This document shows, in pieces, positions 1 to 52,443 of a stretch of DNA of 64,000 bases; position 1 is the stretch's first letter, and each line of letters opens with the position of its first letter. Origin of the DNA: Blastomonas sp. SL216 (GTDB lineage Bacteria; Pseudomonadota; Alphaproteobacteria; Sphingomonadales; Sphingomonadaceae); assembly GCA_026625625.1 (NCBI GenBank), contig CP113055.1:3703001-3767000 (forward strand), given 5' to 3'. The translations under genes were made by a program, and so were the position numbers. The notes beneath the pieces were generated by a model. The model was not told where the DNA came from. It ran no database searches and worked only from the letters and a program-made list of their open reading frames with translations.

Positions 1-1968
1 ATCGAGAACGCGCGCGGCCTTGCCGAGGATTCGGCGCAGGGCAATGTCGTCACCGTCGTCAGCCGCGGCCCCGAAGCGCCGAGCCCGAAGGAATCCTTTC
101 CCACCGCGAAAGAGGCCAATGCGCTGGCGCTGCTGGCCGATCGCAATGCGGGCAAGCTTCAGATCCGCTTCGAAACCGACACCGCCAGTGTCGAGCCTGG
201 CTGGATCACCTTCAGCACCCGCGACGGCGAGGAGCGTGTCCGTTGCGACCGCATCATTGCGCGGATCGGCTCGGCTCCGCCGCGCGCCTTCATCGAGGAA
301 TGCGGCATCGCCTTCACCAGCGCCGATCGCCTGGCCTTCCCGCAACTGTCCCCGGTGTTCGAATCGACCGCACCCAATATCTTCGTCATCGGCGCGCTCG
401 CGGGCTATCCGCTGATCAAGCACTGCATGAACCAGGGCTATGACGTCATCGAGTTCATCAACGGCAATACCGATCTGAAGCCGGCGGACGAGCCGATCCT
501 GGAGGGCAAGTTCAAGGACCTGCCGGGCCGCAAGTCGGTGGCCGAATGGCTCGACCTGCTGCGCGAGAACGTCACCATCCTCAACGGCATGAACCCGCTG
601 CAGATGCGCGAGTTCATGCTTGATTCGGATGCGAAATTCTATCGCAAGGGCGATGTCATCTTTGAACGCGCCGCCCCCGGATCGTCGCTGTTCGCGATCG
701 CGCAAGGTTCTGTCGCGGTGCAGATCGACCCCAATGACCCGTCGAAGACGGTGCCGATCGGCCAGGGGTCGATCTTTGGCGAGGTCGGCCTGATCTCGGG
801 CCGCCGTCGCGGTGCCACGATCGTTGCCGCCGAGGATACGATCTGCGTCGAAATCTCGCGCAATGCCGCGTTGAAGCTGCAAAGCCAGGTGCCGACCGCC
901 AAGAAGGCTATCGAGCGTATCTCGACCGAGCGTCTGTTGCTGCAGATGTTCGGATCGGGGCTCAAGCCAGCCGACATTGCCGAGGTCGTCGAAACCAGCC
1001 GCATCCGCCAGGTCAAGCCGGGCGAGGCGATCCTGAAGGAAGGTGACGAAGGCAACGAGATCTATGTGATCCGCGTCGGATCGATGATCGTCGAGAAGGA
1101 AATCGGCGGCAAGCCGGTGTTCCTCTCCTATTTGCCCGCCGGCTCTTACGTAGGCGAAATGGCGCTGATCGCGGGCGGACGCCGCACCGCGACGGTGAAG
1201 GCGGCGATCAAGTCCGAGGTCATCCAGATCGATGGCGATGCCTTCAAGAAGGTGCTGGAGGCCAATCCCGAGCTGCTCAAGCGCGCCAAGCGCGACATGG
1301 CCAGCCGCCAGGATATCAACGCCTTTATCGAGGCGAAGAAGGACAGCTTCTCCGGCGTCGTCGACATGTATTCGGGCGTCGCCAACTTCCTTGTCGAAAA
1401 CGGCATCGGCGAGGCAACCGACGTGCTGCTGATCGACGAGACGCTGTGCGTGGGCTGCGACAATTGCGAAAAGGCGTGCGCCGACAGCCATGACGGCCTG
1501 TCGCGGCTCGACCGCGAGGCGGGGCGCACCTATGCGCACCTGCACGTGCCGACCAGCTGCCGCCATTGCGAGCACCCGCACTGCATGGCCGATTGCCCGC
1601 CCAACGCGATCAATCGCGGTCCCGATGGCGAGGTCTATATCAATGATACGTGCATCGGCTGCGGCAACTGCCAGCGCAACTGCCCCTATGGCGTGATCCG
1701 CATGGACAAGGTGCCGCCGAAAAAGCCGAGCCTGTTGTCGTGGCTGTTCTTCGGCTTTGGCCCGGGCCCGGGCGAGCCGAGCAAGAAATGGGCCTATGCC
1801 AATAGCGACCACAGCGTCGAAAAGCCCAAGAAAGCGATCAAGTGCGACATGTGCGCCGGCATCGAGGGCGGGCCGAGCTGCGTGCGTGCCTGCCCGACGG
1901 GAGCGGCAATCCGCGTCGCGCCGGACGAGTTCCTCACCGTCGCCCGGCTTGAGCAGGAGGAGGCTTGA
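1..1968 (+). CDS. Flavoprotein reductase fused to two cNMP-binding domains and a four-cluster ferredoxin domain (5' partial)
   Basis: The frame is open from the first base, so the start lies upstream. The first ~150 residues end like a thioredoxin-reductase/YpdA-type pyridine nucleotide-disulphide oxidoreductase (the APNIFVIGALAGYPLIKHC segment near base 376). Two cyclic-nucleotide-binding domains follow, with phosphate-binding cassettes FGEVGLISGRRRGATI (about 775-825) and VGEMALIAGGRRTATV (about 1150-1197); both keep the cassette Glu and Arg. The C-terminal third has four cysteine groups, CVGCDNCEKAC (from 1447), CRHCEHPHCMADC (from 1558), CIGCGNCQRNC (from 1651) and CDMCAGIEGGPSCVRAC (from 1846). 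These match the 4 x [4Fe-4S] electron-transfer subunits of the HybA/DmsB type. No signal peptide is visible in the part present, so it is probably cytoplasmic. It is inferred to pass electrons from NAD(P)H via FAD and Fe-S to the membrane partner encoded 2 bases downstream, perhaps under cAMP control. Confidence 0.85.
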   Translation: MENARGLAEDSAQGNVVTVVSRGPEAPSPKESFPTAKEANALALLADRNAGKLQIRFETDTASVEPGWITFSTRDGEERVRCDRIIARIGSAPPRAFIEECGIAFTSADRLAFPQLSPVFESTAPNIFVIGALAGYPLIKHCMNQGYDVIEFINGNTDLKPADEPILEGKFKDLPGRKSVAEWLDLLRENVTILNGMNPLQMREFMLDSDAKFYRKGDVIFERAAPGSSLFAIAQGSVAVQIDPNDPSKTVPIGQGSIFGEVGLISGRRRGATIVAAEDTICVEISRNAALKLQSQVPTAKKAIERISTERLLLQMFGSGLKPADIAEVVETSRIRQVKPGEAILKEGDEGNEIYVIRVGSMIVEKEIGGKPVFLSYLPAGSYVGEMALIAGGRRTATVKAAIKSEVIQIDGDAFKKVLEANPELLKRAKRDMASRQDINAFIEAKKDSFSGVVDMYSGVANFLVENGIGEATDVLLIDETLCVGCDNCEKACADSHDGLSRLDREAGRTYAHLHVPTSCRHCEHPHCMADCPPNAINRGPDGEVYINDTCIGCGNCQRNCPYGVIRMDKVPPKKPSLLSWLFFGFGPGPGEPSKKWAYANSDHSVEKPKKAIKCDMCAGIEGGPSCVRACPTGAAIRVAPDEFLTVARLEQEEA

Positions 1969-1970
1969 CC

Positions 1971-2882
1971 ATGGCCAGCCAGGCTCAAGGCGCAGCGCCG
2001 CCAGCACGCAAGAAGACCACCGGCCGTCAGCGCAATTCGATGCATGACGGCTTTCTGAAGCACAAGAATTTCCGCTGGATGAAGATCGCCACGGTGCTCA
2101 GCATCGTGTGCCTGGTCAGCTATTTCCTCATCGATGTGCAGCCACGCCACAATGGCGGCTCGTGGTATGGCTATACGCTGGGTACCATCGGGGCGGCGCT
2201 GATTCTGTGGCTGACGTGCCTGGGCCTGCGCAAGCGCGCGATCACGCCGGGGGGCTGGTCGCTCAAGGCCTGGACCAGCGCGCATGTCTATCTCGGGCTC
2301 AGCCTGATCGTCATCGGCACGCTGCACACCGGTTTCCAGTTGGGCTGGAACGTGCACACGCTGGCCTGGTCGCTGATGATGATCGTGATCATCTCGGGCA
2401 TTGTCGGCATCTATTTCTACGCGACCCTGCCCGACAATCTGTCGAGCAACCGCGCCGATTCCGACGGTGCGGTGACCGAGAAGATGATGATCGAGCAGCT
2501 CCGCTCGCTCGACCGTCAGCTGCACGATGCCGCCCAGCCGCTCGATCCTGCGCAGGCCGCGCTGGTTCAGGCATCGCTGGAGCAGGACCCGTTCGACGGC
2601 AATTTCTTCCAGCGCATCACTAACAGCTATTCGGGCTGCGAAACCCGCGCGGCGATTGCCGAGCTGCGCCGGATGCGCGCCTATCAGCCGCGCATGGGCG
2701 ATGACCCGCTCGACAAGGTCGACGGGCTTTTGCAGCGCAAGGAATCGACTCTGGCACGGCTGCGCAAGCATCTGCAGATCAAGTCAATGCTGCAGGTGTG
2801 GCTCTATGTCCATGTGCCGATGACGTTCGCGCTGCTCGCGGCGCTGTCCGCGCATATTGTCAGCGTGTTTTTCTACTGGTGA
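1971..2882 (+). CDS. Five-helix membrane protein, candidate di-heme b-type cytochrome
   Basis: This 303-residue protein has predicted membrane helices near 36-54, 66-86, 102-121, 129-151 and 277-301, with a long soluble helical insert (about 155-270) before the last one. Helix 3 carries H105 and H119, and helix 5 carries H281 and H295. Both pairs are 14 residues apart, the spacing used in cytochrome b proteins to hold two stacked b haems between two helices. I chose ATG 1971 because an AGGAGG-like site lies about 8 bases upstream; a TTG at 1965 is also in frame. The gene starts 2 bases after the Fe-S flavoprotein stop and precedes a decahaem cytochrome, so it is the natural membrane link between them. 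I do not recognise a named family; the haem assignment is inferred from histidine spacing. Confidence 0.7.
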   Translation: MASQAQGAAPPARKKTTGRQRNSMHDGFLKHKNFRWMKIATVLSIVCLVSYFLIDVQPRHNGGSWYGYTLGTIGAALILWLTCLGLRKRAITPGGWSLKAWTSAHVYLGLSLIVIGTLHTGFQLGWNVHTLAWSLMMIVIISGIVGIYFYATLPDNLSSNRADSDGAVTEKMMIEQLRSLDRQLHDAAQPLDPAQAALVQASLEQDPFDGNFFQRITNSYSGCETRAAIAELRRMRAYQPRMGDDPLDKVDGLLQRKESTLARLRKHLQIKSMLQVWLYVHVPMTFALLAALSAHIVSVFFYW

Positions 2883-2928
2883 TCGAAAGTCCCGGGGGCG
2901 GGTGTCGGCAAGTGTTGGGGGCAGTTGA

Positions 2929-4797
2929 ATGATGTTTATCGTCCGCCAGGTGGCCTTGAAGGCAGATGGCAGCGAGATCGTCCGCCAGACCGAGGTGGCG
3001 GGCGAGGAGATTTTCATCGGCCGCAACGCCAGCAACGGCGTGCATCTGCCCGACCTTGCGGTGAACCCGGTTCACGCGCAAATGGTCCGCCGAGGCGGCG
3101 AGCTGGTCATCACCGCGCAATCGCAGCAACCATTCGATGTCGATGGCCGCAGTGTCGAATCGACGACGATCGACATCGCGCGCGGCGCGGAATTGCGTTT
3201 TGGTGGCCATATCATCGCGCTGGGCAGCGAAGGCGATGCCGTCACCCTGACCGTGCGCCGCGTCGAGGCGGTGTCGGACAGCGCCGAGGACAAGGACGAG
3301 GCGGCGATCTATTCGCTCAAGGGCCTGCTGCCCGGCAAGCGGATGAGCGCCTGGGGCTTTGCGCTGCTGGTGCTGATCGCGTGCCTCGCCTGGCCGATCT
3401 ACACCTGGTCGAACTACAAGGACCTGGCTTACAAGGAAAAAGTCTCGCGGCCCGAGGGCTTCCATGCCGATACGATGTGGTCATCGGGCAAGCTCAGCCT
3501 GGCGCACAAGACGCTGAAGAATGACTGCCAGTCCTGCCATGTCGATGCGTTCGTGTCGGTGCGCGACAATGCCTGCATGACCTGCCACCAGAAGGATGCC
3601 GGGCCGCATGCACCGATGGCGCGCCAGCTGGATGCCCGCGGCGAACCCACCGGATTTGCCGCCTTTACCCGATTCGTTGCGGCCAGTTTCAACAAACCCG
3701 CAGGACGCTGTGTCGAATGTCACACCGAGCACGAGGGTGCGGGTGCTATGGAACCGACACAGCAGCGATTCTGTGCTGAATGCCATGACGGGATGAACAC
3801 GCGCTTGACCGACACCAAACTCGGAAACGCCGCCGACTTCGGCAAGGCACACCCGCAATTCCAGGCGGCGGTGCTGGTGCGTCCGCTGGTGGGGGATGAT
3901 GCCAAGGCACCGCGCAAGCGCATCTCGCTCGACAAGAAGCCGCGCGAGAATAACGGCCTGAAGTTCCCGCACGATCTTCATCTCAACAAGACCGGCGGCG
4001 TCGCGCAGATGGGGCGCCGGCTCAGCGGCAAATACGATTTTGGCGACGCGCTCGAGTGCAAGGATTGTCACGAGCCGGACAAGAACAATGTCGGCTTTGT
4101 AGCGGTCGACATGGAGAAGAGCTGTGCGATGTGCCACAGCCTGGCCTTTGACAAGATCGGCGGCACCTATCGCACGCTGCGACACGGCCAGCCCGAACAG
4201 GTCAAGGCCGATCTGCGCGCCTTCTACCGCTCGACCCCGCCTGCGCGGCCGATCAATCTGGGCAGCCTGGCGCGCCAGCGGCCAGGGGTCGTGAACTCGC
4301 GGCGGACGGCAGCGGATTATGCCCGTGCGGTGAATTTCCGCGGTGGCCGTGCCGATCAGGCGATCCGCCAGGTCTTCAGCCGTGGCGGCGCTTGCTATGA
4401 CTGCCACGTCGTGGTGCCGCCTGCTTCGGGCGGGCTCGATTTCCGCATTGCACCGGTCGCGCAGACCAGCCGTTACATGCAAAAGGGCTGGTTCACCCAT
4501 GATGCGCACGACAAGGAAGAGTGCACCAGCTGCCATCTGGCCGAAAAATCCAGAGACGCGTCCGACCTGTTACTGCCCGGAATCAAGGATTGTCGCACCT
4601 GCCATGTTGGCGAGACTGGCGAATCCTTGATCAAGGTTAAGAAACCGGTCGAATCTACCTGTGCAATGTGCCACGATTACCATGCCGATAAGGGGGCGCC
4701 ATGGCTGCTTCGCGAGCAAGACAAGAAGAAAAAGCGGCCAGAGATTACGGCCTCCATGGCGCATCCGGGGGGGGCAGCGGCGCGATTGCGACGATAG
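2929..4797 (+). CDS. FHA-domain membrane-anchored decahaem c-type cytochrome
   Basis: This 622-residue protein has three parts. Residues 1-115 look like an FHA domain, with GRNASN and a later NPVHAQM; the Ser usual in the FHA SxxH motif is replaced by Asn, so phosphothreonine binding is uncertain. One membrane helix follows at about 142-160 and leaves the N-terminus in the cytoplasm. Residues 200-582 contain ten CXXCH haem c sites: CQSCH, CMTCH, CVECH, CAECH, CKDCH, CAMCH, CYDCH, CTSCH, CRTCH and CAMCH. The haem part should be periplasmic, since haem c is attached there. The gene is 46 bases downstream of the membrane cytochrome and belongs to the same transcription unit. Its inferred role is a periplasmic electron conduit or terminal reductase; the substrate is unknown. 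Confidence 0.85.
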   Translation: MMFIVRQVALKADGSEIVRQTEVAGEEIFIGRNASNGVHLPDLAVNPVHAQMVRRGGELVITAQSQQPFDVDGRSVESTTIDIARGAELRFGGHIIALGSEGDAVTLTVRRVEAVSDSAEDKDEAAIYSLKGLLPGKRMSAWGFALLVLIACLAWPIYTWSNYKDLAYKEKVSRPEGFHADTMWSSGKLSLAHKTLKNDCQSCHVDAFVSVRDNACMTCHQKDAGPHAPMARQLDARGEPTGFAAFTRFVAASFNKPAGRCVECHTEHEGAGAMEPTQQRFCAECHDGMNTRLTDTKLGNAADFGKAHPQFQAAVLVRPLVGDDAKAPRKRISLDKKPRENNGLKFPHDLHLNKTGGVAQMGRRLSGKYDFGDALECKDCHEPDKNNVGFVAVDMEKSCAMCHSLAFDKIGGTYRTLRHGQPEQVKADLRAFYRSTPPARPINLGSLARQRPGVVNSRRTAADYARAVNFRGGRADQAIRQVFSRGGACYDCHVVVPPASGGLDFRIAPVAQTSRYMQKGWFTHDAHDKEECTSCHLAEKSRDASDLLLPGIKDCRTCHVGETGESLIKVKKPVESTCAMCHDYHADKGAPWLLREQDKKKKRPEITASMAHPGGAAARLRR

Positions 4798-4841
4798 CTT
4801 CCACCCCTGAGCACACGAACAATAAGGGACCGGGTCGCGGA

Positions 4842-5690
4842 ATGCTTATAGCTCAGATCACCGATATTCATCTGGGCTTCGATCCCGATAACCCCGCCGA
4901 GTTCAATCGCAAGCGGCTCGATCAGGTTATTGCCATGCTGCGCGATCTCGATCCGGTGCCCGATCTGCTGCTCGCCACGGGCGATCTGATCGATCGGGGC
5001 GATGAGGACAGCTATCGCCGCCTCAAGAATGCGCTCTCGGTCTGCCCGTTCCCTGTCTATATGTGCATGGGCAATCACGACCAGCGCGATACTTTTCAGG
5101 CGCAATTTCCCGACGTTCCGACCGCCGACGGCTTTGTGCAATATGAGGTCGATGCAGGGCCGATCCGGCTGCTGGTGCTCGATACGCTGGAAGAGGGGCG
5201 CCATGGCGGTGCGTTCTGCGAGGTCCGCGCCGAATGGCTGCGCGCGCGGCTGACCGAGCACACCGACCGTCCGACGCTGATCGTCCAGCACCACCCGCCG
5301 ATCGAGGTGGGCATCGAGTGGATGAACACGCATCCCGAAGAGCCCTGGGTGGAGCGGCTGCGCGACTGCCTGGCGAACCGGCCGAACGTGATCGGCATGG
5401 TCTGCGGCCATGTCCATCGCGCGATCGTCAGCCAGTGGAACGGGTTTCCGGTTGCCATCTGCCCGTCAAGCGCGCCGCAGGTGGCGCTGGAGCTGGCCCC
5501 GATCGATCCCGACAGGCCCGATGGCCGCAACATGATCATCGCCGATCCGCCCGCCTTCGCGCTGCACTGGTGGAACGGGCGCGAACTCATCACCCATTAC
5601 GAGACCGCCGACGAGCATGTGATGCTGGCGCGCTTCGACGAAAAGATGCAGCCGCTGGTGCGCAGCCTGCTGGCGGAAAGGCCGGCCTGA
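4842..5690 (+). CDS. cpdA: Class III cyclic-nucleotide phosphodiesterase (CpdA-like metallophosphoesterase)
   Basis: This 282-residue calcineurin-like phosphoesterase has the full metal-binding set in order: D8-x-H10, G47-D48, G77-N-H-D80, the VQHHPP block at 148-153 and G189-H-V-H192. This pattern and length match the 3',5'-cAMP phosphodiesterase CpdA group. The reading frame extends upstream, but the conserved fold begins at MLIAQITDIH, so ATG 4842 is chosen. It lies 44 bases after the decahaem cytochrome, on the same strand. Because the first gene of the locus has two cAMP-type binding domains, this enzyme may remove the signal they sense. CpdA-like proteins can also act on other phosphodiesters, so the substrate is inferred. 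Confidence 0.78.
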   Translation: MLIAQITDIHLGFDPDNPAEFNRKRLDQVIAMLRDLDPVPDLLLATGDLIDRGDEDSYRRLKNALSVCPFPVYMCMGNHDQRDTFQAQFPDVPTADGFVQYEVDAGPIRLLVLDTLEEGRHGGAFCEVRAEWLRARLTEHTDRPTLIVQHHPPIEVGIEWMNTHPEEPWVERLRDCLANRPNVIGMVCGHVHRAIVSQWNGFPVAICPSSAPQVALELAPIDPDRPDGRNMIIADPPAFALHWWNGRELITHYETADEHVMLARFDEKMQPLVRSLLAERPA

Positions 5691-5760
5691 TCGCCATCTC
5701 GCGATGGCCGATGGGCAGCCGCACCTTGCCGCCCGCGTGACCGGTGGCTATCTAGCCGCC

Positions 5761-6750
5761 ATGACCATTGCACCGACCACGCTCGACCTGATTGGCAACA
5801 CCCCGCTGGTGCGGCTCCATGGCCCCAGCGAGGCTGCGGGCTGCGACATCTTTGGCAAGTGCGAATATGCCAATCCCGGCGCATCGGTGAAGGACCGCGC
5901 GGCGCTGTATATCGTGCGCGATGCCGAGGAGCGCGGGACGCTGCAGCCCGGCGGGACGATCGTCGAGGGCACGGCGGGCAATACCGGCATCGGCCTCGCG
6001 CTGGTCGCCAATGCCAAGGGCTACAAGACCATCATCGTCATGCCCGAAACCCAGTCCAAGGAGAAGATGGACACGCTGCGCGCGCTGGGTGCCGAACTGG
6101 TGCTGGTGCCGGCCGCGCCTTATGCCAATCCCGGCCATTTCGTGCACACCTCGCGCCGCCTGGCCGAAGAAACGCCGGGCGCGATCTGGGCGCAGCAGTT
6201 CGACAATATCGCCAACCGTCGCGCGCATATCGAGGGCACGGCAGAAGAGATCTGGGCGCAGATGGATGGCCGGATCGACGGTTTCACCTGCGCTGCGGGC
6301 ACCGGCGGCACGATCGCCGGCGTGGGCATGGGCCTCAAGGCGCACAACCCCGATGTCACCATCGCGCTGACCGATCCGCACGGCGCTGCCCTGTTCAACT
6401 ATTACGCCAATGGCGAGCTGAAGGCGGAAGGATCGTCGGTCGCCGAAGGCATCGGCCAGGGGCGCATCACCGGCAATCTGGAAGATGCGCCGATCGATAC
6501 GCAGTTCCGCATTTCCGATGAGGTCGGGCTCTATTGGGTGCAGCGGCTGCTCAAGGAAGAGGGGCTGTGTCTGGGCCTGTCCTCGGGCATCAATGTCGCA
6601 GGCGCGGTCGAGCTGGGGCGGACACTGGGCCAGGGCTCGCGCGTCGTGACCATCCTGTGCGATACGGGCTTCCGCTATCTGTCGACGCTGTACAATCCCG
6701 AATGGCTGCGCGCCAAGGGATTGCCCGTCTTCCCCTGGCTGGCCGATTGA
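5761..6750 (+). CDS. cysK: Cysteine synthase family, PLP-dependent
   Basis: This is a 329-residue fold-type II PLP enzyme. K44 in the GASVKDRA motif is the expected Schiff-base lysine, TAGNTG at 71-76 is the substrate-loop motif, and a GTGGT phosphate-binding loop lies near residue 180. The family makes L-cysteine from O-acetylserine and sulfide. The C-terminal part (ILCDTGFRYLSTLYN) is the form common to alphaproteobacterial CysK-like enzymes. A cystathionine beta-synthase-like or O-phosphoserine-using variant cannot be excluded from sequence alone. It begins 70 bases after the phosphodiesterase gene and may share its transcript. Confidence 0.85.
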   Translation: MTIAPTTLDLIGNTPLVRLHGPSEAAGCDIFGKCEYANPGASVKDRAALYIVRDAEERGTLQPGGTIVEGTAGNTGIGLALVANAKGYKTIIVMPETQSKEKMDTLRALGAELVLVPAAPYANPGHFVHTSRRLAEETPGAIWAQQFDNIANRRAHIEGTAEEIWAQMDGRIDGFTCAAGTGGTIAGVGMGLKAHNPDVTIALTDPHGAALFNYYANGELKAEGSSVAEGIGQGRITGNLEDAPIDTQFRISDEVGLYWVQRLLKEEGLCLGLSSGINVAGAVELGRTLGQGSRVVTILCDTGFRYLSTLYNPEWLRAKGLPVFPWLAD

Positions 6751-6765
6751 CCTATACTCACGGTC

Positions 6766-7122
6766 ATGGTCGCTGAAAAAGCCCGCAACGCTGGGGGCAA
6801 TCCCCTTATGCACCGGCTGCAGATCGGCATCGGCGGTATCTTTGCGGTACTGGTGATGGTCGCGCTGGCCGACATGCTGCTGCAGCGCGCCGCGACCGAG
6901 GCTCCGGCAGAGACGGCCATCGCCGCCGAACCCGGCACGACCAATCCCGCATCGCCGCCGGTGGTGCAGGCACCAGCCGCAAGCGAGCCGCTGGTCGATC
7001 TGGGCGTGGTGCCCGATCTTCCGGCAGAAGGCGCGCAGCACAGCGCAGGCGGGCAGACTCCGGTGGTCGGCGAATTGCAGCCCGCCCCGCAAACGGGCAC
7101 TCCCAGCCAGCCCCAGCAATGA
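6766..7122 (+). CDS. Small single-pass membrane protein with Ala/Pro-rich tail, unknown function
   Basis: The 118-residue protein has one hydrophobic helix at about 18-40 (IGGIFAVLVMVALADMLL) and then a low-complexity Ala/Pro/Glu/Gln-rich tail that should lie in the periplasm. I recognise no domain. The stop overlaps the next start by 4 bases (ATGA), so the two are probably translated together. Tail composition matches other exported proteins of this genome. It may accompany the GldG-like protein downstream; that is inferred only from coupling. Confidence 0.6.
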   Translation: MVAEKARNAGGNPLMHRLQIGIGGIFAVLVMVALADMLLQRAATEAPAETAIAAEPGTTNPASPPVVQAPAASEPLVDLGVVPDLPAEGAQHSAGGQTPVVGELQPAPQTGTPSQPQQ

Positions 7123-7907
7123 TGCGCCTGGGCGTCGCGCTCGCGGCGGCAGGCCTGGCAGCGACGGCCTGCGCTCCCGCCTCGTCGGGCCAGGCCGGCG
7201 AGACCGCCCATGCCGAGCCTCCAGCCCCGATCCTCCCCAGCCTGCCGCGCCAGCGTATCGTGCTGATGAGCAGCCTTCCGCTCGTCTATGGCGCAGGCGT
7301 GGACATGGCGGGCGTCATCGCGGGCAAGGCCGATCCGCATCCCCTGCACCGCGCGCTGGCTGAGGCGCACGATCTGGTCGTGCCCGATATTCTCGATGCG
7401 GCAGCGTTCGAAGGCGCGCGCCTGGCGATCCTGGTCCAGCCGCGCGGCTTGAGCCCGCAGGAGCTGGTCGCGCTCGATGGCTATGTGCGCCAGGGCGGCA
7501 GGCTGTTGCTGTTTGCCGATCCGATGCTCGAATGGCCGCATGGGGCAGGGCTGGCCGATCCGGCAGGGCCGGTGCGGACATCCTTGCTCTCGCCGCTGCT
7601 CAGCCATTGGGGATTGGAGCTGCTGGATCCGGCGATCGAATCGGTCCGGTTGGGGAAATCGGGCGCCGTTCTGGTTCATCCCGGGCAATTCGGGGTCCTG
7701 CGCGGGAGAATTGGGGACGCGGCATGCACGCTGGAATCGTCCGCACATCTGGCGCGCTGCCGGGTGGGCAGGGGGCATGCGGTGCTGGTCGCCGATGCCG
7801 ATCTGCTCGATCCGGCAATCCTCGAAAAACCGGGCCAGACCGCCCGCGCCAACCGCCTGCTGGTGCACGATCTGATCACCGGATTGGTGGCGGAGGACAC
7901 GTCGTGA
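7119..7907 (+). CDS. Exported GldG-like (ABC-type uncharacterised transport) protein
   Basis: This 262-residue protein starts with a signal-like segment and an Ala-Thr-Ala-Cys sequence at Cys18 that could be a weak lipobox. The middle part, with the blocks RGLSPQELVALDGYVRQGG and RLLLFADPMLEWP, resembles the GIFT/GldG-like domain of uncharacterised ABC-associated periplasmic proteins. No ABC ATPase or permease gene is nearby. It is the last gene before the mraZ promoter region and is coupled to the small membrane protein upstream. The family assignment is from pattern memory and moderate. Confidence 0.55.
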   Translation: MMRLGVALAAAGLAATACAPASSGQAGETAHAEPPAPILPSLPRQRIVLMSSLPLVYGAGVDMAGVIAGKADPHPLHRALAEAHDLVVPDILDAAAFEGARLAILVQPRGLSPQELVALDGYVRQGGRLLLFADPMLEWPHGAGLADPAGPVRTSLLSPLLSHWGLELLDPAIESVRLGKSGAVLVHPGQFGVLRGRIGDAACTLESSAHLARCRVGRGHAVLVADADLLDPAILEKPGQTARANRLLVHDLITGLVAEDTS

Positions 7908-7935
7908 CGCGGCTCAGGCAAGGACGTTCGGTTCA

Positions 7936-8023
7936 CCCCGATTCTGGCGCGCTCGCCCCAATATTGCCGTTCTAGACCCAAAAAACCCCTTTCCTCCCCA
8001 AGTTTCCCTTGGTATGGACTCCC
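7936..8023. promoter_or_regulatory. Phased CCC(C) array upstream of mraZ, possible reverse-strand MraZ boxes
   Basis: CCC or CCCC runs begin at 7936, 7956, 7977, 7986, 7996, 8006 and 8021. Most fall on a ten-base register. Read on the minus strand these are GGG boxes with 5-6 base spacers, the layout known for MraZ binding sites (TGGGN repeats in E. coli). The array starts 29 bases after the preceding gene and ends about 180 bases before mraZ. MraZ binding is an inference. Confidence 0.4.
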
Positions 8024-8079
8024 TTAATCGGGGTTCAACCATCTGTGATTCCTTGCCGACCTGCGGTGCCGACGCGCCG

Positions 8080-8169
8080 TGGGAGCCTCAGGGCTTTATC
8101 CGCGATCCGGCGGATGCGGGCCGTGTGCGGGGCAGTCAGGGTCATGGAGGCACCCCCGGACAGTCAGGG
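8080..8169 (+). promoter_or_regulatory. Candidate MraZ operator: GGG boxes on the coding strand ahead of mraZ
   Basis: GGG triplets begin at 8081 and 8091 (TGGGA, then AGGGC), at 8118, 8129 and 8139 (spacing 11 and 10), and at 8167. The nine-base word CAGTCAGGG occurs twice, 28 bases apart (8133 and 8161). Repeated NGGGN boxes spaced by one helical turn are what MraZ is known to bind when it represses its own operon. The last box is about 40 bases from the mraZ start. No clear -35/-10 pair was recognised. Confidence 0.45.
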
Positions 8170-8206
8170 ATACGCAACGGCGCGGCATAAGGGGTGAATC
8201 GACCAA

Positions 8207-8701
8207 GTGGCGGAAATCAGTGCCTTTCTTGGTTCTGCATTGACCACCATCGACCCTAAGGGGCGGATGGCCATCCCGGCTGCCTTCCGCAATCCCATCA
8301 TCGCTAACTCGAATGGCGAAAGCTCGGTCGTCTTCTCGTTCAATGCCCAGGCCCAGTGCCTGCAGGGCCATGGCACCGAACGTCTCGCAGCCTTGCTGGA
8401 GCAGATGCGCCGCCGTGAGCAGCTGGCGAGCGAGGCGGGCGAGGAATTCCGCACCGAGCTGTTCGGCGGCCCGCGCTTCAACTCCACCGCCACGATCAGC
8501 TTCGACAGCAGCGGACGTCTCATCCTGCCAAGGATGCTGGTCGCGATGGCCCGAATCGAAAAGCACGTGTTCTTCAGCGGCAACGGCACCGATTTCAGCG
8601 TCTGGGGCGTTGAGCATCTGCTGGCGATGGACGACCCGCGTCTCGCCTCGCAGCAGTTCAATGCGCGTTTCCTGATGGAAGAGCTGGGGGGCAAGCGCTG
8701 A
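8207..8701 (+). CDS. mraZ: Transcriptional regulator MraZ
   Basis: This 164-residue protein has the two AbrB-like swapped-hairpin repeats of Mra[19 protein letters not shown] near the N-terminus and [18 protein letters not shown] in the second half. The start is GTG, about 12 bases after GGGG at 8191-8194. MraZ is a nucleoid-associated autorepressor at the head of dcw operons that binds GGG-box repeats. The stop shares one base with the rsmH start (TGATG), so the two are coupled. Confidence 0.95.
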
Positions 8702-9696
8702 TGGCCCGCCCTGAAACCCGCGACATCGCCCGCAGCGACGCCCCGCACGTTCCGGTGCTGCTCGCCGAGGTGCTCGAAGGCCTGGCGATTGCGCCGGGCG
8801 AGGTGCATGTCGATGCAACCTTTGGTGCTGGTGGATACAGCCGCGCCATGCTGGACGCCGGTGCATCGGTCCATGGTTTCGACCGCGATCCCGATGCCGC
8901 AGCGACCGGCAAGGCGCTGGTGGAGGAAGCGAACGGCCGCTTCACCTTCCATGCAGCCCGCTTCTCGCAACTCGCGCAGGTGCTGCAGGCTGCGGGCGTC
9001 ACCCAGGTGGATGGCATCGTGTTCGATATCGGCGTCTCGTCGATGCAGCTCGATCAGGCGGATCGTGGCTTCTCGTTCCAGTCCGATGGCCCGCTCGACA
9101 TGCGCATGGGCCAGGACGGGCTGAGCGCGGCAGAGTTCGTCAACACCGCCGAAGAAGCCGATATCGCCGATATCCTCTACTTGTATGGCGAAGAGCGCCA
9201 GTCGCGCCGCATCGCCCGCGCCATCGTCGCCGCCCGTCCGTTGCAGAGGACGCTCGAGCTGGCGGCGGTGGTGCGCAAGGCTCTGGGCTATCGCCCCGGC
9301 GCGCCCAAGGACCCGGCCACGCGCACCTTCCAGGCGATCCGCATTCATGTGAACGGCGAGCTGGACGAGCTGCGCGAGGGGCTGGTTGCCGCAGAGGCGA
9401 TGCTCGCCCCCGGCGGGCGTCTGGCCGTGGTCAGCTTCCACAGCCTGGAAGACCGCATCGTCAAGCGGTTCCTGAAGGTGCGCAGCGGCAGCGAGGGTGC
9501 CGGATCGCGTCACCTGCCCGACATGTCCGGCCAGCGCCGTACCCCCAGTTTCGAGAAACCCGCCAGACCGACCCGGGCGGGCGAGGCCGAATGCGCGCGT
9601 AACCCCCGCGCGCGTTCGGCCACCTTGCGGGTCGCAGTCCGTAGCGATGCCCCCGGCTTGGGCACGCACGATGATGCGGAAAGGCGGGCGGCATGA
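8701..9696 (+). CDS. rsmH: 16S rRNA (cytosine1402-N4)-methyltransferase RsmH
   Basis: This 331-residue protein (formerly MraW) has the opening [13 protein letters not shown], the SAM-binding [14 protein letters not shown] motif, [10 protein letters not shown], the [14 protein letters not shown] block and [13 protein letters not shown]. It methylates C1402 of 16S rRNA with SAM. The C-terminal tail is richer in basic residues than the core. It is coupled to mraZ by a one-base overlap and to ftsL by a four-base overlap. Confidence 0.96.
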
Positions 9697-10289
9697 TCCT
9701 GGCAGTCAAGCGGCTCAAGACCATCGGCTGGATCGCGCTGATCTTCATCGTGGCGATCGCGCTCTATCCGCTCTCGCTCAGCGTTGCGACGCTGCGCAGC
9801 GATCTCACGCGCACCGAGCGCGACATCCTGCGCACCCGCGCCGAAATCCGCTATCTCGAGACCGAATTCGCCACGCGCGCCAGCCTGGCCCAGCTCGCGA
9901 TGTGGAACGACTTGGAATATGGTTATGAAGCGCCCAGCGCGGCGCAATATCTGGATGGCGAGCGCGAGCTCGCCAATCTGGGCGATGCCACCAAGCCGCT
10001 CGACCAGCCGGTGCGCGTCGCGGCGATGACCATCAAGCCGCAGGCCGAGCCCGCCGCGATCAAGCCCGCGCAGCTCGCCGCGAACACCGCCAAGACGCCC
10101 GAGCCGCTTTCGGTCTCGGCGAGCGTCGCGATCATCAGCCCGGCGCGCGCCGCGACATCGGCCACCGCGCCCAAGTCGGCCAAGGCGGGCGAGGATAAAG
10201 GCGCTGGCCGCAGGCTGCTCGACGACAGGCTGCTCGATCGGATCAACAAACAGGCTGATGCCGAACTGAAGAAGACGGGGGGTCAATGA
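9693..10289 (+). CDS. ftsL: Cell division protein FtsL-like
   Basis: A short cytoplasmic N-terminus, one membrane helix at about 11-33 ([19 protein letters not shown]) and a following coiled-coil stretch with [13 protein letters not shown] fit the bitopic FtsL fold. The 198-residue length exceeds typical FtsL because of an Ala/Pro/Lys-rich C-terminal extension. FtsL, with FtsB and FtsQ, activates the septal synthase FtsWI. Position between rsmH and ftsI, with ATGA overlaps on both sides, supports the call more than sequence similarity, which is low in this family. Confidence 0.82.
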
Positions 10290-11995
10290 CCGCGCTTGCA
10301 TCCGGTAGCCACAGGGTCCGTCTGGCCAGCAAGCGCCAGCATCTCACGCTCACCGCGCAGGTCCGCCTGGTTGCGGTGCTTGCGCTATTTGGCCTGGGCG
10401 TCGGCGCGATCCTGCTGCGCCTGACCTTTATCGGCGTGTTCGGCGAGCAGGCGCAGGCTGCGACACGCTCCGCATTGGTCGATCCGGGCCGCGGCGATAT
10501 CGTCGATCGCAACGGCGTGCCGCTGGCGCGCACCATCGACGGCTATGCCATCCGCGTGGTGCCCGACAAGCTGATCGGTGACCGCAAGGTGCTGGCCGGC
10601 AAGCTGGCGGCGATCTTCCCCGATACTTCGGAAGCCCGGTTCCTCGATCTGCTTAGCCGCAAGAAGCCCACCTATCTGCGCCACCGCGCCATTCCGGAAG
10701 AGGTCAACCGGGTCCATGCGCTGGGCGAAGTCGGCATCGAATTTCCGCGCGAAAAGGAGCGTTTCTACCCGCAGCTGCAACTGGCGGCGCATGTGCTGGG
10801 CTATGTCCATCCCGATGGCCATGGCGTCTCCGGCATGGAGCGGGCGATGGACAGCGATCTGATCGACCCGAAAAAGCGCCTGACCCCGTCTGCGCTGTCG
10901 GTCGACATCCGCGTGCAGGCCGCGCTCGAGGACGAACTGGGCAAGGGCATGAAGGCCTATGATGCCAAGGCGGCTGCCGGGATCGTGCTCGACGTGGAAA
11001 CGGGCGAGGTGATGGCGATGACCTCGCTGCCCAGCTTCAACCCCAATCATTTCGACGCCAGCAGCGCCGCCTTTGAGGCGAACCAGGTCACCTATCGCTT
11101 CTTCGAGCTGGGATCGACCTTCAAGCCGCTGACCGTCGCTGCCGCGATCGATGCCGGAACCGTGACCGACCTGTCGCGGCGTTACGATGCCAGCCGTCCG
11201 CTCAAGGTGGCGGGCTTCCAGATCCGCGATTCCCACTCGTCGGGCCGCTGGCTGAACGTGCCCGAGACACTGGTCCACAGCTCCAACATCGTCACCGCGC
11301 AGATTGCCGACGAGCTGGGCCCCGAGCGGCTGCAGGCAGTGATGCGCAAGCTCCACTTCGATCGCCAGGCCGATATCAACCTGCGCGAGCGCGCCAAGCC
11401 GCTCTGGCCCGCGCAATGGGGCCGGCTGACCAACATGACCGTCGCCTATGGCCATGGCATCGCGGTGACGCCGCTGCACCTCGCCTCTGCCTATGCGGCG
11501 ATGGTCAATGGCGGGCTGTACCGGCCGGCGACGCTGATGAAGCTGAACCCGGCCGATGTGCCGCGCGGCGAGCGGGTGTTCAAGGCGTCGACCAGCGCAC
11601 GGATGAACCAGCTGCTGCGCATGATCGTGCGCGACGGTACCGGCCGCAAGGCCGAGGCGCCCGGTTTCCGCGTCGGCGGCAAGACGGGCTCGGCCGAAAA
11701 GCCGGGCGCGGGCGGCTACAAGCGCAGTTCGGTGGTCGCGACCTTTGCGGCGGCCTTCCCGATGGACAAGCCGCGCTATGTGGTGATCGTGATGATCGAC
11801 GAGCCCTCGGGCAATTCGGCATCGTCGTTCCAGCGGACCGCTGGCTGGACCGCCGCACCGGTGGTTGCCAAGCTGGTGCCGCGGATCGGCCCGATGCTGG
11901 GCGTCATCCCCGATGACCGCCGCGATGTCGACGTGTCGGAACTGATGCCGCTGCTGTGGAAGGCACCAGGCAAGAAATCGGACGATCCGGTATAG
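10286..11995 (+). CDS. ftsI: Septal peptidoglycan transpeptidase FtsI (PBP3)
   Basis: This 569-residue class B penicillin-binding protein has one N-terminal membrane helix (about 30-52), a PBP dimerisation domain starting at RGDIVDRNGVPLA, and a transpeptidase domain. The catalytic motifs are S277-T-F-K280, S332-S-N334 and K466-T-G-S469. It cross-links septal peptidoglycan with FtsW in the periplasm. The start overlaps ftsL by four bases. A 97-base gap follows, the only sizeable one between mraZ and ftsA. Confidence 0.96.
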   Translation: MTALASGSHRVRLASKRQHLTLTAQVRLVAVLALFGLGVGAILLRLTFIGVFGEQAQAATRSALVDPGRGDIVDRNGVPLARTIDGYAIRVVPDKLIGDRKVLAGKLAAIFPDTSEARFLDLLSRKKPTYLRHRAIPEEVNRVHALGEVGIEFPREKERFYPQLQLAAHVLGYVHPDGHGVSGMERAMDSDLIDPKKRLTPSALSVDIRVQAALEDELGKGMKAYDAKAAAGIVLDVETGEVMAMTSLPSFNPNHFDASSAAFEANQVTYRFFELGSTFKPLTVAAAIDAGTVTDLSRRYDASRPLKVAGFQIRDSHSSGRWLNVPETLVHSSNIVTAQIADELGPERLQAVMRKLHFDRQADINLRERAKPLWPAQWGRLTNMTVAYGHGIAVTPLHLASAYAAMVNGGLYRPATLMKLNPADVPRGERVFKASTSARMNQLLRMIVRDGTGRKAEAPGFRVGGKTGSAEKPGAGGYKRSSVVATFAAAFPMDKPRYVVIVMIDEPSGNSASSFQRTAGWTAAPVVAKLVPRIGPMLGVIPDDRRDVDVSELMPLLWKAPGKKSDDPV

Positions 11996-12016
11996 GCAAT
12001 TATACACAGGCACCGC

Positions 12017-12034
12017 GATGCAGGGGGTTGCATC
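12017..12034. other. Small inverted repeat between ftsI and murE
   Basis: GATGCA and TGCATC form a perfect 6-bp stem around the loop GGGGGT. It sits in the only real gap of the mraZ-to-ftsA run, with no T-tract, so it is not a standard terminator. It could be an operator or a processing site; nothing further can be said. Confidence 0.3.
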
Positions 12035-12092
12035 TGATGCGGTCAGACATAGAGGAGGCGGGAATTTACAGGGTCGGTAAAAGGGACGTGCA

Positions 12093-13532
12093 ATGAAATT
12101 GGGTGAACTGGCTTCGGGCCTTTCCAGCGACGATGCCGCGCGGATTGTGACCGGATTTGCCATCGATCACCGCAAGGTTGCGCCTGGCACCGTTTTCGGT
12201 GCCTTTCCCGGTGCCCGCTTCAATGGCGAGGATTTCATCGCCGATGCCGTCGCTTCCGGTGCGATTGCGATTGTCGCCGCGCCTGATGCCAAAGTCGAAG
12301 GCGCACTCCACATTGCCGATGCGACGCCCCGCCGGGCCTTTGCCCAGCTCGCCGCCCGCTTCTTCACGCCCGTCCCCGCGCATGTCGCCGCCGTCACCGG
12401 CACCAATGGCAAGACCTCCACGGCCGAAATGACCCGCCAGCTCTGGCGGATGGCGGGGCACAATGCCGCCTCGATCGGCACATTGGGCGTCACAACCTCG
12501 GTCGATCAGGCCTCCACCGGGCTGACCACCCCCGATATCGTGACCTTCCTCGGCAATATGTCGGGCCTGGCGCGCGAGGGCGTGACCCATGCCATTTTCG
12601 AGGCATCGAGCCACGGCCTGTCGCAGTTCCGCACCGAAGGCCTGCCGGTGCAGGTCGGTGCATTCACCAATCTGAGCCGCGATCATCTCGACTATCACGG
12701 CACGATGGAGGCCTATTTCGAGGCCAAGATGCGGCTGGTCGACGAAGTGGTCGTCGATGGCGGGCATTTCGTGGCCTGGGCCGATGACGAATGGTCGCAG
12801 CCGGTTATCGAACGTGCCAGGGCACGCGGGCTCAAGCTGCTGACCGTGGGCAGCGCCGGGGAGGCGATCAAGCTGGTCAGCCGCACACCGACCCAGCTCG
12901 GCCAGCAGCTGGTACTCGAGCATGACGGCAAGCAGGTGAAGGTCAACCTGCCGCTGATCGGTGCCTATCAGGCGGCCAATGCGCTGGTCTCCGCCGGCAT
13001 CGTCATCGCGGCAGGCGGCGCGCCGGCCCAGGTGTTCGATCATGTCGCCCGGCTGCAGCCGGTGCGCGGACGGCTGGAGCGTGCCGTGATCACCCGCGCA
13101 GGCGCGCCGGTCTATGTCGACTATGCGCATACCCCCGATGGCCTGCAGGCGGCGATCGAGGCGCTGCGCCCGCATGTCAGCGGCAAGCTGATCACGCTGT
13201 TCGGCGCAGGCGGCGACCGCGATACCGGCAAGCGCCCGCAAATGGGCAAGGTCGCCAGCGACCTGTCCGATGTCGTGATCGTCACCGATGACAATCCGCG
13301 CTCCGAGGACCCGGCCGCCATCCGCGCCGCGATCATGGCCGCTGCGCCGCAGGCGACCGAAATCGGCGGACGGCGCGAGGCGATTGCCGCAGCCATAGCC
13401 ATGGCGGGCAAGGACGACATCGTGCTGCTGGCGGGCAAGGGCCATGAACAGGGCCAGATCGTCGGTGCAGGCGATAACATGCGCGTCCTTCCGTTCGACG
13501 ACGTTCAGGTCGCACGCGAGTGCGCGGCATGA
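12093..13532 (+). CDS. murE: UDP-MurNAc-L-Ala-D-Glu:meso-diaminopimelate ligase
   Basis: This 479-residue Mur ligase has the ATP-binding TGTNGKTS motif at 102-109, the central-domain FEASSHGLSQFR block and the meso-DAP selectivity motif D400-N-P-R403. DNPR marks ligases that add meso-diaminopimelate rather than lysine, so the peptidoglycan is DAP type. It acts in the cytoplasm as the third amino-acid addition step. The start has AAAAGGGA just upstream and is the only dcw start here preceded by a real leader. Confidence 0.96.
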   Translation: MKLGELASGLSSDDAARIVTGFAIDHRKVAPGTVFGAFPGARFNGEDFIADAVASGAIAIVAAPDAKVEGALHIADATPRRAFAQLAARFFTPVPAHVAAVTGTNGKTSTAEMTRQLWRMAGHNAASIGTLGVTTSVDQASTGLTTPDIVTFLGNMSGLAREGVTHAIFEASSHGLSQFRTEGLPVQVGAFTNLSRDHLDYHGTMEAYFEAKMRLVDEVVVDGGHFVAWADDEWSQPVIERARARGLKLLTVGSAGEAIKLVSRTPTQLGQQLVLEHDGKQVKVNLPLIGAYQAANALVSAGIVIAAGGAPAQVFDHVARLQPVRGRLERAVITRAGAPVYVDYAHTPDGLQAAIEALRPHVSGKLITLFGAGGDRDTGKRPQMGKVASDLSDVVIVTDDNPRSEDPAAIRAAIMAAAPQATEIGGRREAIAAAIAMAGKDDIVLLAGKGHEQGQIVGAGDNMRVLPFDDVQVARECAA

Positions 13533-14947
13533 GCCTGTGGACGTCCTTAGAGCTCGCAGAAGCGACCGGCGGCACGGCTTCGGCCGACTTTGCCGTCCAT
13601 GGCGTCGCGTTCGACTCCCGCGAGATCCAGCCGGGCGACCTGTTTATCGCGATGCGCGGCGAGGCGACCGACGGACATCTGTTCATCGACCGCGCGATGG
13701 CGGCCGGCGCAGCGGGCGTGATCTGCGAAAGCCCTGTCGATCACCCGCATGTCCTGGTGGCCGACAGCGCAGCGGCGCTCACCGCTTTGGGCCATGCGGC
13801 GCGCGCGCGCAGCAGCGCCACCATTTTCGGCGTGACCGGTTCGGCCGGCAAGACCAGCACCAAGGAGGCGCTGTTCCACGCGCTCGACCGCATGGCCCCG
13901 GGCGCGGTGCATCGTTCGGTCAAGAGCTACAACAACCATGTCGGCGTGCCGCTGAGCCTGGCGCGGATGCCGCGCGATGCCCGCTATGGCGTGTTCGAGA
14001 TGGGGATGAACCATGCCGGCGAACTGGCCGAGCTGACCCGCATCGTCCGGCCGCATATCGCGATGATCACCACCATCGCACCGGCGCATATCGGCAATTT
14101 CAGCAATGGTGAAGAGGGCATTGCCGATGCCAAGGCCGAGATTTTCGAGGGGCTGGAGCCCGGCGGCACTGCGATCGTGCCGCACAACAACCGGCATTAC
14201 CCGCGCCTTTATGCCGCCGCCCAAGCCTGTGCCCATGGCATCCGCCGCTTCGGCAGCCAGGAGGACAGCGAAACCCGGCTGATCGATGCGATCCGCGCGC
14301 CCGAGGGCGGCTCGCTGGTCACGGCCCAGATTGGCGAGGCGCGGCTGTGCTTCCGTGTCAGCGCACCGGGCGAACATTGGGTGATGAATGCGCTGGCGGT
14401 GATGAGCGCGGTCGATGCGGCAGGCGGCGACCTGGCCGTGGCGGGCCTGGCGCTGGCCGATCTTCCCGGCATGTCGGGCCGCGGCGAGCGGATGCAGGTG
14501 GTGACGCCCGATGGCGGCAGCGCGCTGCTGATCGACGAGGCCTATAACGCCAACCCCGCTTCCATGGCAGCCACGCTTGCGCTGCTGGGTCAGGAACAGG
14601 CCAAGCGCCGCATTGCGGTGCTGGGCGCGATGAAGGAACTGGGCGAGACCTCGGACGGCTATCATGGCGGCCTTGCTGCCCCTGTCATCGCGGCGGGCGT
14701 GCACCATGTCATTCTGGTCGGCGATGAAATGGCACCCTTGGCCGATGCGCTCGCCAAATCGCTTGAGTGGCAGGGCACAATCGCGCATGTGCCCGCCGCC
14801 GACGCCGCGCTCACCGCGCTGCAGGCCGTTTTGGGCGATGGCGACGCTTTGCTCGTCAAGGGGTCCAATTCCGTGGGATTGTCCGCACTGGTGCGTGCGC
14901 TGGCCAAGCCGCCGGCTGCATCTGCCCTGGCGCGGGAGGGGGTTTGA
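13529..14947 (+). CDS. murF: UDP-MurNAc-tripeptide:D-Ala-D-Ala ligase
   Basis: This 472-residue Mur ligase has the P-loop GSAGKT at 104-109, the [13 protein letters not shown] and [10 protein letters not shown] blocks and the [11 protein letters not shown] motif typical of MurF. It adds D-Ala-D-Ala, made by the ddl product of this operon, to UDP-MurNAc-tripeptide. I placed the start at ATG 13529, which overlaps the murE stop as ATGA; an in-frame GTG lies nine bases upstream. Confidence 0.96.
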
Positions 14948-49973: not shown

Positions 49974-50173
49974 GACTCTATCCCAATAAAATTCTGATAC
50001 AGGCATGTTAGTCTAAGGATTTAACCGCCGACGAAATTGATAGCCAATGCTGGAAATTGGGATTTTGCATTATATCAAATTACGTTCGTAGTCAGGGTGT
50101 TCGGCACACATTCATCATTGACTGCTGTTAGGGATATCAGCATCGTTCATAAGGAAAGCTATGGGGGGCGTGC

Positions 50174-51562: not shown

Positions 51563-51567
51563 CCCCC
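51539..51567. terminator. Hairpin between convergent orphan and LysR genes
   Basis: GGGGGC pairs with GCCCCC, and TAGG with CCTA inside, leaving a four-base bulge. It covers both stop codons. No T-tract is present, so termination is uncertain. Confidence 0.35.
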
Positions 51568-52443
51568 ATCCCCCCAAACCCCACCAATCCTTCCCCGCAA
51601 AACCCCGCGCACCCGCTCCACGCACGCCTCCGGCACCGCCCCCTCCTTGCGCACCAGCAGGCCCAGCGTGCGTACATGCGCGAAATCCTCCATCGGCACG
51701 CGCGCCACGCCCGGCGCGGTGAAGCAATCCGGCATCACCGTCACGCCCACGCCTGCCGCGACCAGCGCCAGGATGCGGTCGTCGCTTCTTGAGCGGGCGG
51801 CGAAGAAGGGGCGGACGCCGCGTGCGGTGAAGTGCTGGCTGGTTGCGGCGAGCAATTCGCAATGGCGACGGACCAGCATCACATTGTCGGCGAGCTCCTG
51901 CGCGGCGATGCTCTGGCGCTGGGCGAGGGGGTGCGCGGCGGGCAGGGCGAGCGCATAGCCTTCGCTCGCCACCGGCTCGAACTGCGCGCGGTGGCGGCCC
52001 TGCGGCTCCATCGTCACAGCGAGGTCGATCCGCGCCGCGTCCAGGCGGTCGATCAGCTCGCTCGCGCGGCCCTCGACGAACTCGGTGCGCAGGCCATCGA
52101 TCTCGGCCAGCGCCTCGGCCATCGCCGCGACGATCGCCGTGGGCAGCGTCGAGAGCACGCCCAGCCGCACGATCGCATCGGGCCGGTGCTGCTTCATCGC
52201 CTCTTCGGCCAGGTTGAACTGCGCCTCGATCCGCCGCGCATGTTCGGCGAACTGTGCGCCCGTCGGTGTCAGGTCGACCCGCCGGTTGGAGCGGTGGAAT
52301 AGCCGTTGCCCCACGCTCTCCTCCAGCCGCGCGATGCCCACCGACAGCGTCGGCTGGGTGACGTTGCAGCTTTCCGCCGCACGGGTGAAATTGCCATGTT
52401 CGACCACGGCGAGGAAGTAGCGCAGCAGATAGCGTTCGATCAT
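51559..52443 (-). CDS. LysR-family transcriptional regulator
   Basis: This 294-residue protein has an N-terminal winged helix (YFLAVVEHGNFTRAAESCNV, TQPTLSVGIARLEES) and a periplasmic-binding-like effector domain starting near VRLGVLSTLPTAIV. It is divergent from the isovaleryl-CoA dehydrogenase gene, the usual LysR-target layout, although leucine catabolism regulators known in Pseudomonas are MerR type. The C-terminal end runs into the AT-rich islet and overlaps the orphan stop by four bases, so its last residues may have been altered by the insertion. Confidence 0.9.
   Translation of the reverse strand: MIERYLLRYFLAVVEHGNFTRAAESCNVTQPTLSVGIARLEESVGQRLFHRSNRRVDLTPTGAQFAEHARRIEAQFNLAEEAMKQHRPDAIVRLGVLSTLPTAIVAAMAEALAEIDGLRTEFVEGRASELIDRLDAARIDLAVTMEPQGRHRAQFEPVASEGYALALPAAHPLAQRQSIAAQELADNVMLVRRHCELLAATSQHFTARGVRPFFAARSRSDDRILALVAAGVGVTVMPDCFTAPGVARVPMEDFAHVRTLGLLVRKEGAVPEACVERVRGVLRGRIGGVWGDGG

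Follow-up and report, generated by a model that had tools for sequence, protein, structure and literature searches.

A conserved flavoprotein, haem b protein and decahaem cytochrome unit with cyclic-nucleotide-binding and FHA domains in Blastomonas sp. SL216, probably one half of a larger electron-transfer system

The window analysed here is a 64,000-nucleotide stretch of Blastomonas sp. SL216, positions 3,703,001-3,767,000 of the single 3,863,332-base contig of this genome. It begins with four consecutive forward-strand genes, designated A to D, which encode a flavoprotein with cyclic-nucleotide-binding (cNMP) and Fe-S domains, a predicted di-haem b membrane protein, a membrane-anchored decahaem cytochrome with an FHA-fold domain, and a metallophosphoesterase. 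A, B and C form a conserved unit across the Proteobacteria, and by co-occurrence this unit is probably one half of a larger system; the genes for the remaining half (the outer module) lie 2.2 Mb away. On balance, we lean towards reading A-B-C as the cyclic-nucleotide-gated NAD(P)H gateway, at the inner membrane, of a porin-cytochrome conduit that would carry electrons outward across the envelope. A first-pass annotation of this DNA had drawn a path from NAD(P)H through Fe-S and haem b to ten c haems; that path is plausible, and the unit can plausibly be regarded as the inner half of a larger kind of system that has in part been predicted before.

Architecture and conservation of A, B and C

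Gene A is open at the 5' end of the window, where positions 1-1968 encode residues 197-851; the complete protein has 851 residues (L025:9413-11968) and starts 588 bases (196 codons) upstream of the window. It consists, in this order, of an FAD/NAD(P) domain, two tandem cNMP domains and a set of sixteen cysteines that would ligate four [4Fe-4S] clusters; Pfam assigned Pyr_redox_3/2, two cNMP_binding stretches (E 2.5e-34) and several Fer4 families to the complete protein, and PF13247 matched at E 5e-10. Residues were counted in 41 A, 45 B and 43 C sequences, close and distant relatives pooled, with two truncated C proteins (L117, L119) set aside. All 16 Fe-S cysteines (positions 1447-1893) are invariant in the A proteins, the FAD glycines 11, 13 and 16 are kept in 39/41 and face gaps in the other two, and the NAD glycines 191 and 193 are present in 41/41, with G or A at position 196. 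The first cNMP domain (622-888, limits approximate) was placed by its cassette FGEVGLISGRRRGAT, which holds E457/R466, and the second (1006-1266) contains the cassette VGEMALIAGGRRTAT with E582/R591; the Glu and Arg of both cassettes are invariant in all 41 proteins. The cyclic-nucleotide input domains proposed in the first-pass annotation hence have intact cAMP/cGMP ligand residues, and ligand binding is predicted, since such invariance would otherwise be unexpected. The same genome has three class III cyclase matches and one Pkinase match.

Among solved relatives, the flavin part of A is closest to YpdA/Bdr and thioredoxin reductase (TrxR)-like flavoproteins, and PKA and PKG are among the best matches of the tandem cNMP part, whereas none of the best 60 of 206 solved sequences covers the whole domain order. 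These relatives led us to abandon the name "flavin reductase" given to A previously; "thioredoxin reductase" was likewise rejected because the protein of this genome has no CxxC redox pair among the cysteines that precede its Fe-S region, and A is best described as carrying a YpdA/thioredoxin-reductase-like FAD/NAD(P) domain that lacks this pair.

Gene B (2040-2882; 280 residues) is a putative di-haem b membrane protein, as judged from its motifs: WxxxHx13H occurs twice (H82/H96 and H258/H272) and [S/T]GxxG once in 45/45 aligned sequences, with W78, H82, H96, H106, G120, G123, W254, H258 and H272 invariant throughout and S119 kept in 43/45 (T in 2). Its model has five long helices at a predicted local distance difference test (pLDDT) score of only 65.7. 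B of the window gave no Pfam match up to E 0.1; three distant homologues were scanned as well, one of which reaches Ni_hydr_CYTB (E 0.0019), below the family cut-off.

Gene C (2929-4797; 622 residues) begins with an FHA fold (residues 1-111, positions 2929-3261), and this fold is real: the Pfam match scores 21.2 bits against a cut-off of 20.7, residues 1-110 are modelled at pLDDT 68-90 by blocks of ten, and FHA domains lead the best 50 PDB matches in Foldseek, 41 of which have E<=0.001. A single hydrophobic anchor follows (3343-3411), which hydropathy puts at approximately residues 139-161 and the model at helix 141-172. The FHA domain would be cytoplasmic, and the decahaem region (3526-4674) has CxxCH motifs at residues 200, 216, 261, 282, 377, 399, 489, 532, 555 and 578. 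The ten positions are aligned in 43/43 C proteins, those of L091 and L092 having nine strict CxxCH each by pattern, and ten further histidines (193, 227, 268, 308, 348, 351, 419, 524, 527 and 585) are kept in at least 42/43, giving together the number required for ten bis-His haems; the model of the haem part is unreliable (mean pLDDT 42). Of the GR, SxxH and NG residues that mark canonical phosphothreonine-reading FHA domains, GR is kept in 43/43, Ser in 4/43, His in 31/43 and Asn in 19/43. The FHA assignment of the first-pass annotation is therefore upheld as a fold, while the sensing role attached to it is doubtful on account of the Ser found in 4/43 only; the domain probably docks C rather than reading phosphothreonine.

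The gene order A-B-C-D with these domains and motifs, as first annotated, was confirmed, and we followed it into other genomes. The nearest named relatives are Blastomonas and two genomes named Sphingomonas, with C 90-95% identical. Across 22 loci of named relatives the order is preserved up to the limits of the contigs (A and B are missing from L022 and A is cut in L023, both at contig ends). Order and motifs recur in loci with C 47-63% identical and in more distant ones, which makes A-B-C more than a chance neighbourhood. Forty regions were hand-chosen from the B and C matches, several of them from one genus, and 34 of these retained a strong B (>150 bits) after six with weak or no B had been excluded; C adjoins B in 34/34 and A adjoins it in 31/34. 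A and B are even encoded as a single open reading frame in L091 (1,125 residues) and L092 (1,120 residues), both of one genus. Conserved order, this fusion and the invariant cofactor sites together favour the proposed NAD(P)H-flavin-Fe-S-haem b-c haem path as one unit. At E<=0.001, weak matches included, B was found in 34/289 genomes of a class sample and 24/398 of a phylum sample. In L119 and L122, B is preceded by a gene with four CxxCH motifs, which may provide another point of entry for electrons. The order A-B-C-D is also annotated on two of the 12 Sphingobium replicons that held all C matches in a plasmid collection; a plasmid or phage origin was rejected, as these replicons are 0.88-1.28 Mb in size, and no relative was found when viral contigs were scanned with B.

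Co-occurrence with a distant outer module

The outer module of Blastomonas sp. SL216 (L129, approximately C1:1,491,102-1,501,064) comprises, in order, genes for a tetrahaem cytochrome (L129:15647-17065), an HbpS-like protein, an approximately 620-residue protein without CxxCH that is a candidate outer-membrane barrel, and a large decahaem cytochrome with LVIVD repeats. This order is found in 14/14 Sphingomonadales regions, the tetrahaem gene being split into two frames in L138. The barrel candidate has a signal-like N terminus (by eye) and a C-terminal Y or F in 10/10 sequences; no such candidate lies beside A-B-C in this genome. Next to the outer module, L129:17307-17984 (+) encodes, divergently from the tetrahaem gene, a membrane protein of 225 residues that matches the cNMP-binding domain (E 4.8e-13) and, weakly, POPDC1-3; genes of the same length occupy a comparable position in L130, L134 and L135, as judged from length and position only.

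Across 196 Sphingomonadales genomes, full-length C (>440 bits; five of the 44 genomes with any match have short ones only) and the large decahaem were each found in 39, and the two sets are identical, with none discordant (Fisher value 5e-42, which overstates independence because the genomes are related). Among the matches listed, carriers and non-carriers occur together within at least five genera, and a control family, Photo_RC, present in 25/196 genomes, overlaps the C carriers in only 11. C and the large decahaem are at most 10 kb apart in 20 of the 39 carriers, 16 and 28 kb apart in two, 0.39-2.2 Mb apart on one contig in seven and on different contigs in ten, including G159, where both pieces are at contig ends and an assembly break is probable. 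The pattern extends beyond the order: at least one of the HbpS-like, barrel and large decahaem genes adjoins A-B-C in 19 of the 34 strong-B loci, some of which are cut by contig ends, three loci (L111, L118, L122) instead have genes for 4-haem and 5-haem cytochromes and a porin-like protein, and 12 have neither adjacent. In the class sample, the large decahaem was found in 20 of 289 genomes (partial on a short contig in G578), all among the 27 with strong B, defined there as >200 bits and taken from the 34 listed.

In view of the co-occurrence of C and the large decahaem, a stand-alone four-gene respiratory module was rejected, and the four-gene locus, first annotated as a complete system, is probably half of a larger one. 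A functional link to phototrophy was set aside as weak (Photo_RC in 11/39 carriers versus 14/157 others, Fisher p 0.003, uncorrected for kinship). Shewanella SO1659, considered from the literature as a relative of the large decahaem, was dropped.

Gene D, the upstream region and the genomic setting

Gene D (4842-5690; 282 residues) encodes a class III cyclic-nucleotide phosphodiesterase-like (CpdA/SpdA-like) metallophosphoesterase with the expected motifs; the gaps between A and B, B and C, and C and D are 71, 46 and 44 nucleotides. D follows C in 22/22 loci of named relatives, whereas just three of the 34 strong-B loci (L100, L101 and L103) have it adjacent and in L093 it lies 4.7 kb off; it is confined to close relatives and is a lineage-specific addition. 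In G105, no D stands at A-B-C and a D gene adjoins the outer module 16 kb away (L104, L137), so that D seems to track the electron-transfer system within the Sphingomonadales. Both family scores are below the NCBIfam cut-offs (SpdA 143/400 bits, CpdA 89/225 bits) and would favour SpdA, a family named for 2',3'-cyclic nucleotides. The first-pass view of D as the enzyme that degrades the cyclic-nucleotide input is accordingly unproven, D being found in 4/34 distant regions, and degradation of cAMP by D is possible.

Upstream of the window, a CRP-like box AGTGGTAAAGATCACA (AGTGG-N6-TCACA; L025:9212-9227, C1:3702212-3702227) lies in a conserved block between a ccmI-like gene and A in 8/8 Blastomonas-type loci. 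Its half-sites are reversed in ten Sphingorhabdus-type loci, and the box occurs in 21/144 loci, some being duplicates of one place, with the copy in L134 located elsewhere; in L019, L020, L027 and L028 and ahead of the outer module it is absent or only weak. Of 300 shuffles, 11-27 likewise give a match to the CRP consensus at two mismatches; as a regulatory site, the box upstream of A is no more than suggestive. No FNR box was found upstream of A at two mismatches.

Neighbouring genes were called with a simple script, and most of their names were assigned by eye, the remainder by Pfam scan. A CcmH/CycH-type tetratricopeptide repeat gene (Pfam) lies on the opposite strand, upstream of and divergent from A, and ccm-like genes (by eye) are close to A in several loci. 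Downstream of D, positions 5704-14947 hold a putative cysteine synthase-type gene and a putative mraZ-rsmH-ftsI-murE-murF cell-division cluster, recognised by eye. Farther away, a foreign-looking 462-residue open reading frame, coiled-coil-like by eye (50174-51562, +), stands in a stretch (50001-52000) with a GC content of 46% compared with approximately 65% around it.

Proposed electron path, related systems and competing explanations

In the scheme that we propose, cytoplasmic A would take electrons from NAD(P)H and pass them through FAD and the four [4Fe-4S] clusters to the haem b pair of B, and B would carry them over the inner membrane. C, with a cytoplasmic FHA domain and ten periplasmic haems, would receive them there and deliver them to the tetrahaem cytochrome and the rest of the outer module (HbpS-like protein, probable barrel, large decahaem) and so to the outside. 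B may also exchange some of the electrons with quinone. The tandem cNMP domains would serve as a cyclic-nucleotide switch on A, a role made plausible by their position between the flavin and Fe-S parts, and the FHA domain would dock C to A or B. Contact among the three proteins is supported by the A-B fusion and the conserved order. Outward flow is preferred because the presumed cytoplasmic end is an NAD(P) flavoprotein fused to B in two genomes, and because electrons leaving the cell move with the membrane potential, as is established in bioenergetics.

The general arrangement of a porin with multihaem cytochromes is shared with MtrCAB and MtoAB. Entry into those systems is of the CymA type, from quinol, and not through an NAD(P)H flavoprotein with a di-haem b protein, and they are not known to have a cNMP domain. 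Closer parallels are found in the PCC4 systems, whose prediction included an inner-membrane protein of five TM helices that bears WX3HX13H twice as well as SGXXG, 10-haem and 4-haem cytochromes, Alphaproteobacteria among the carriers and, in Subgroup II, a pfam13247 Fe-S gene upstream of the inner-membrane protein, the two being annotated as one gene in one genome (He et al. 2017, PMC5566968). B has the same motifs and five long model helices, A upstream of it matches PF13247, and a 10-haem C is accompanied by a 4-haem cytochrome, although the latter stands in the distant module and the genes thus do not form one cluster. The kind of system is already predicted, in that B bears the motifs reported earlier for the inner-membrane protein of PCC3 and PCC4, and the statement that no such module had been described is not supported as worded, since the predicted PCC4 combines these motifs with a pfam13247 gene and a 10-haem cytochrome (PMC5566968). 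The loci L111, L118 and L122 are of the PCC4 type, A being present in L111 and L118 as well. Differences lie in the lack of a 5-haem match in the SL216 genome (a two-sequence profile gave short partial matches in only 8/196 genomes), in a barrel candidate without a match to a shallow two-sequence profile of the porin-like protein of L111 and L118, and in the added large decahaem with LVIVD repeats and HbpS-like protein. The main text on PCC4 uses none of the terms "cyclic nucleotide", "cNMP" and "FHA"; its supplementary domain figure may show such domains (PMC5566968).

PCC3, treated in the same paper, likewise has an inner-membrane protein with the motifs of B, together with a porin and periplasmic and surface cytochromes; its periplasmic cytochrome differs in having 21-27 haems (PMC10734462). 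PCC3-like 24-haem genes were seen in L095, L096 and L099, with a weak B match (48 bits) in L095 and L096; L095 and L099 also encode a flavoprotein that matches A over part of its length. In the "group 1" porin-cytochrome conduits (PCCs) reported in 2026 from a Sterkfontein karst metagenome, a large decahaem, encoded by a gene of 4-5 kb, stands next to an outer-membrane porin with approximately 20 strands, and 7/11 also have a gene for ferredoxin-NADP reductase close by (PMC13264449). By description only, they resemble the large decahaem, the barrel candidate and perhaps A; the section on them has no mention of cNMP, FHA, HbpS or a long-distance split (PMC13264449). The electron-uptake genes of Thioclava were dropped as relatives, since no multihaem cytochromes are among the genes found in that source (PMC9226611). 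Among the best-ranked matches in the main texts of openly accessible papers, no account links a conduit of this kind with cyclic-nucleotide or FHA domains. The cNMP and FHA equipment, the strict coupling to the outer module in the Sphingomonadales and the split layout appear to be new.

Several observations weigh against the outward gateway. Neither Pfam nor the PDB gave a useful match for the barrel candidate, and in an amphipathicity test its ten sequences were not above shuffles (z -0.1 to 1.7); a fold search with the B model (pLDDT 65.7) returned no match at E<=0.001. Three of the 34 strong-B loci (L119, L120, L122) have B-C without an adjacent A. The large decahaem is absent from 7/27 strong-B genomes of the class sample, of which three have PCC4-type genes and G594 has an HbpS-like gene at a contig end, and from four of seven further B genomes, being present in three; G345, one of these four, does have the HbpS-like gene and the barrel gene, located where a contig ends (L088). 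Domains with intact cassettes may still be unoccupied or structural, and PCC4 was drawn inward, from an extracellular donor to quinone (He et al. 2017, PMC5566968).

The direction itself could be reversed, with Fe(II), Mn(II) or a different extracellular donor feeding the outer module and then C and B, and the electrons ending on quinone or, via A, on NAD(P)+. We regard such an inward conduit as unlikely: A is built as an NAD(P)-flavoprotein, transfer from c haems to NAD(P)+ opposes the membrane potential and, for such donors, the redox potential (established bioenergetics), and the carriers here are Sphingomonadaceae, mostly aerobic heterotrophs. It draws strength from a quinone site that B may hold and from the sources of PCC4, a pyrite-oxidising enrichment, Zetaproteobacteria and water filters, for which flow from an outside donor to quinone was proposed (PMC5566968); most PCC carriers in the samples of the 2026 survey, however, may export electrons (PMC13264449). 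Somewhat less probable still is a purely periplasmic role, with A-B-C feeding a soluble acceptor, peroxide, or thiol or haem reduction for cytochrome maturation and the outer module being a separate user of C. The ccm-like genes near A, the genomes that have A-B-C without the large decahaem, and the HbpS-like protein of the outer module, of a haem-degrading or haem-binding type by its Pfam name, are consistent with it; that the same genomes carry C and the large decahaem, without exception among the 196 Sphingomonadales, argues against it, as would ccm genes without A-B-C, which we expect to be common.

A further alternative overlaps with the outward gateway in everything except gating: the cNMP and FHA domains might be structural relics or docking modules, with regulation being transcriptional only. 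The loss of the phosphothreonine contacts of the FHA domain (Ser 4/43, His 31/43), the absence of D from 30/34 distant regions and the CRP-like box upstream of A fit this possibility, which we nevertheless find doubtful, given that the Glu and Arg of both cassettes are invariant in 41/41 proteins, as would not be expected without ligand binding. The outward gateway remains the reading towards which we lean, and we extend it tentatively, at odds clearly short of even, to a widespread form of extracellular electron transfer in the Proteobacteria in which an NAD(P)H entry enzyme would be switched directly and post-translationally by a cyclic nucleotide through two tandem PKA-like domains, with a cytoplasmic FHA domain locking the exit cytochrome to the flavoprotein.

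Because the two halves can be split, with 20/39 carriers having them within 10 kb, surveys that demand a porin in the same cluster would miss the system. If the proposed scheme is true, an electron wire would be gated by a second messenger independently of gene expression, joining cAMP-type signalling directly to electron flow across the envelope; porin-cytochrome conduits would gain a concrete entry point for NAD(P)H, not quinol, and the separate sightings of PCC4 and "group 1" PCCs would be tied to one system in aerobic sphingomonads.

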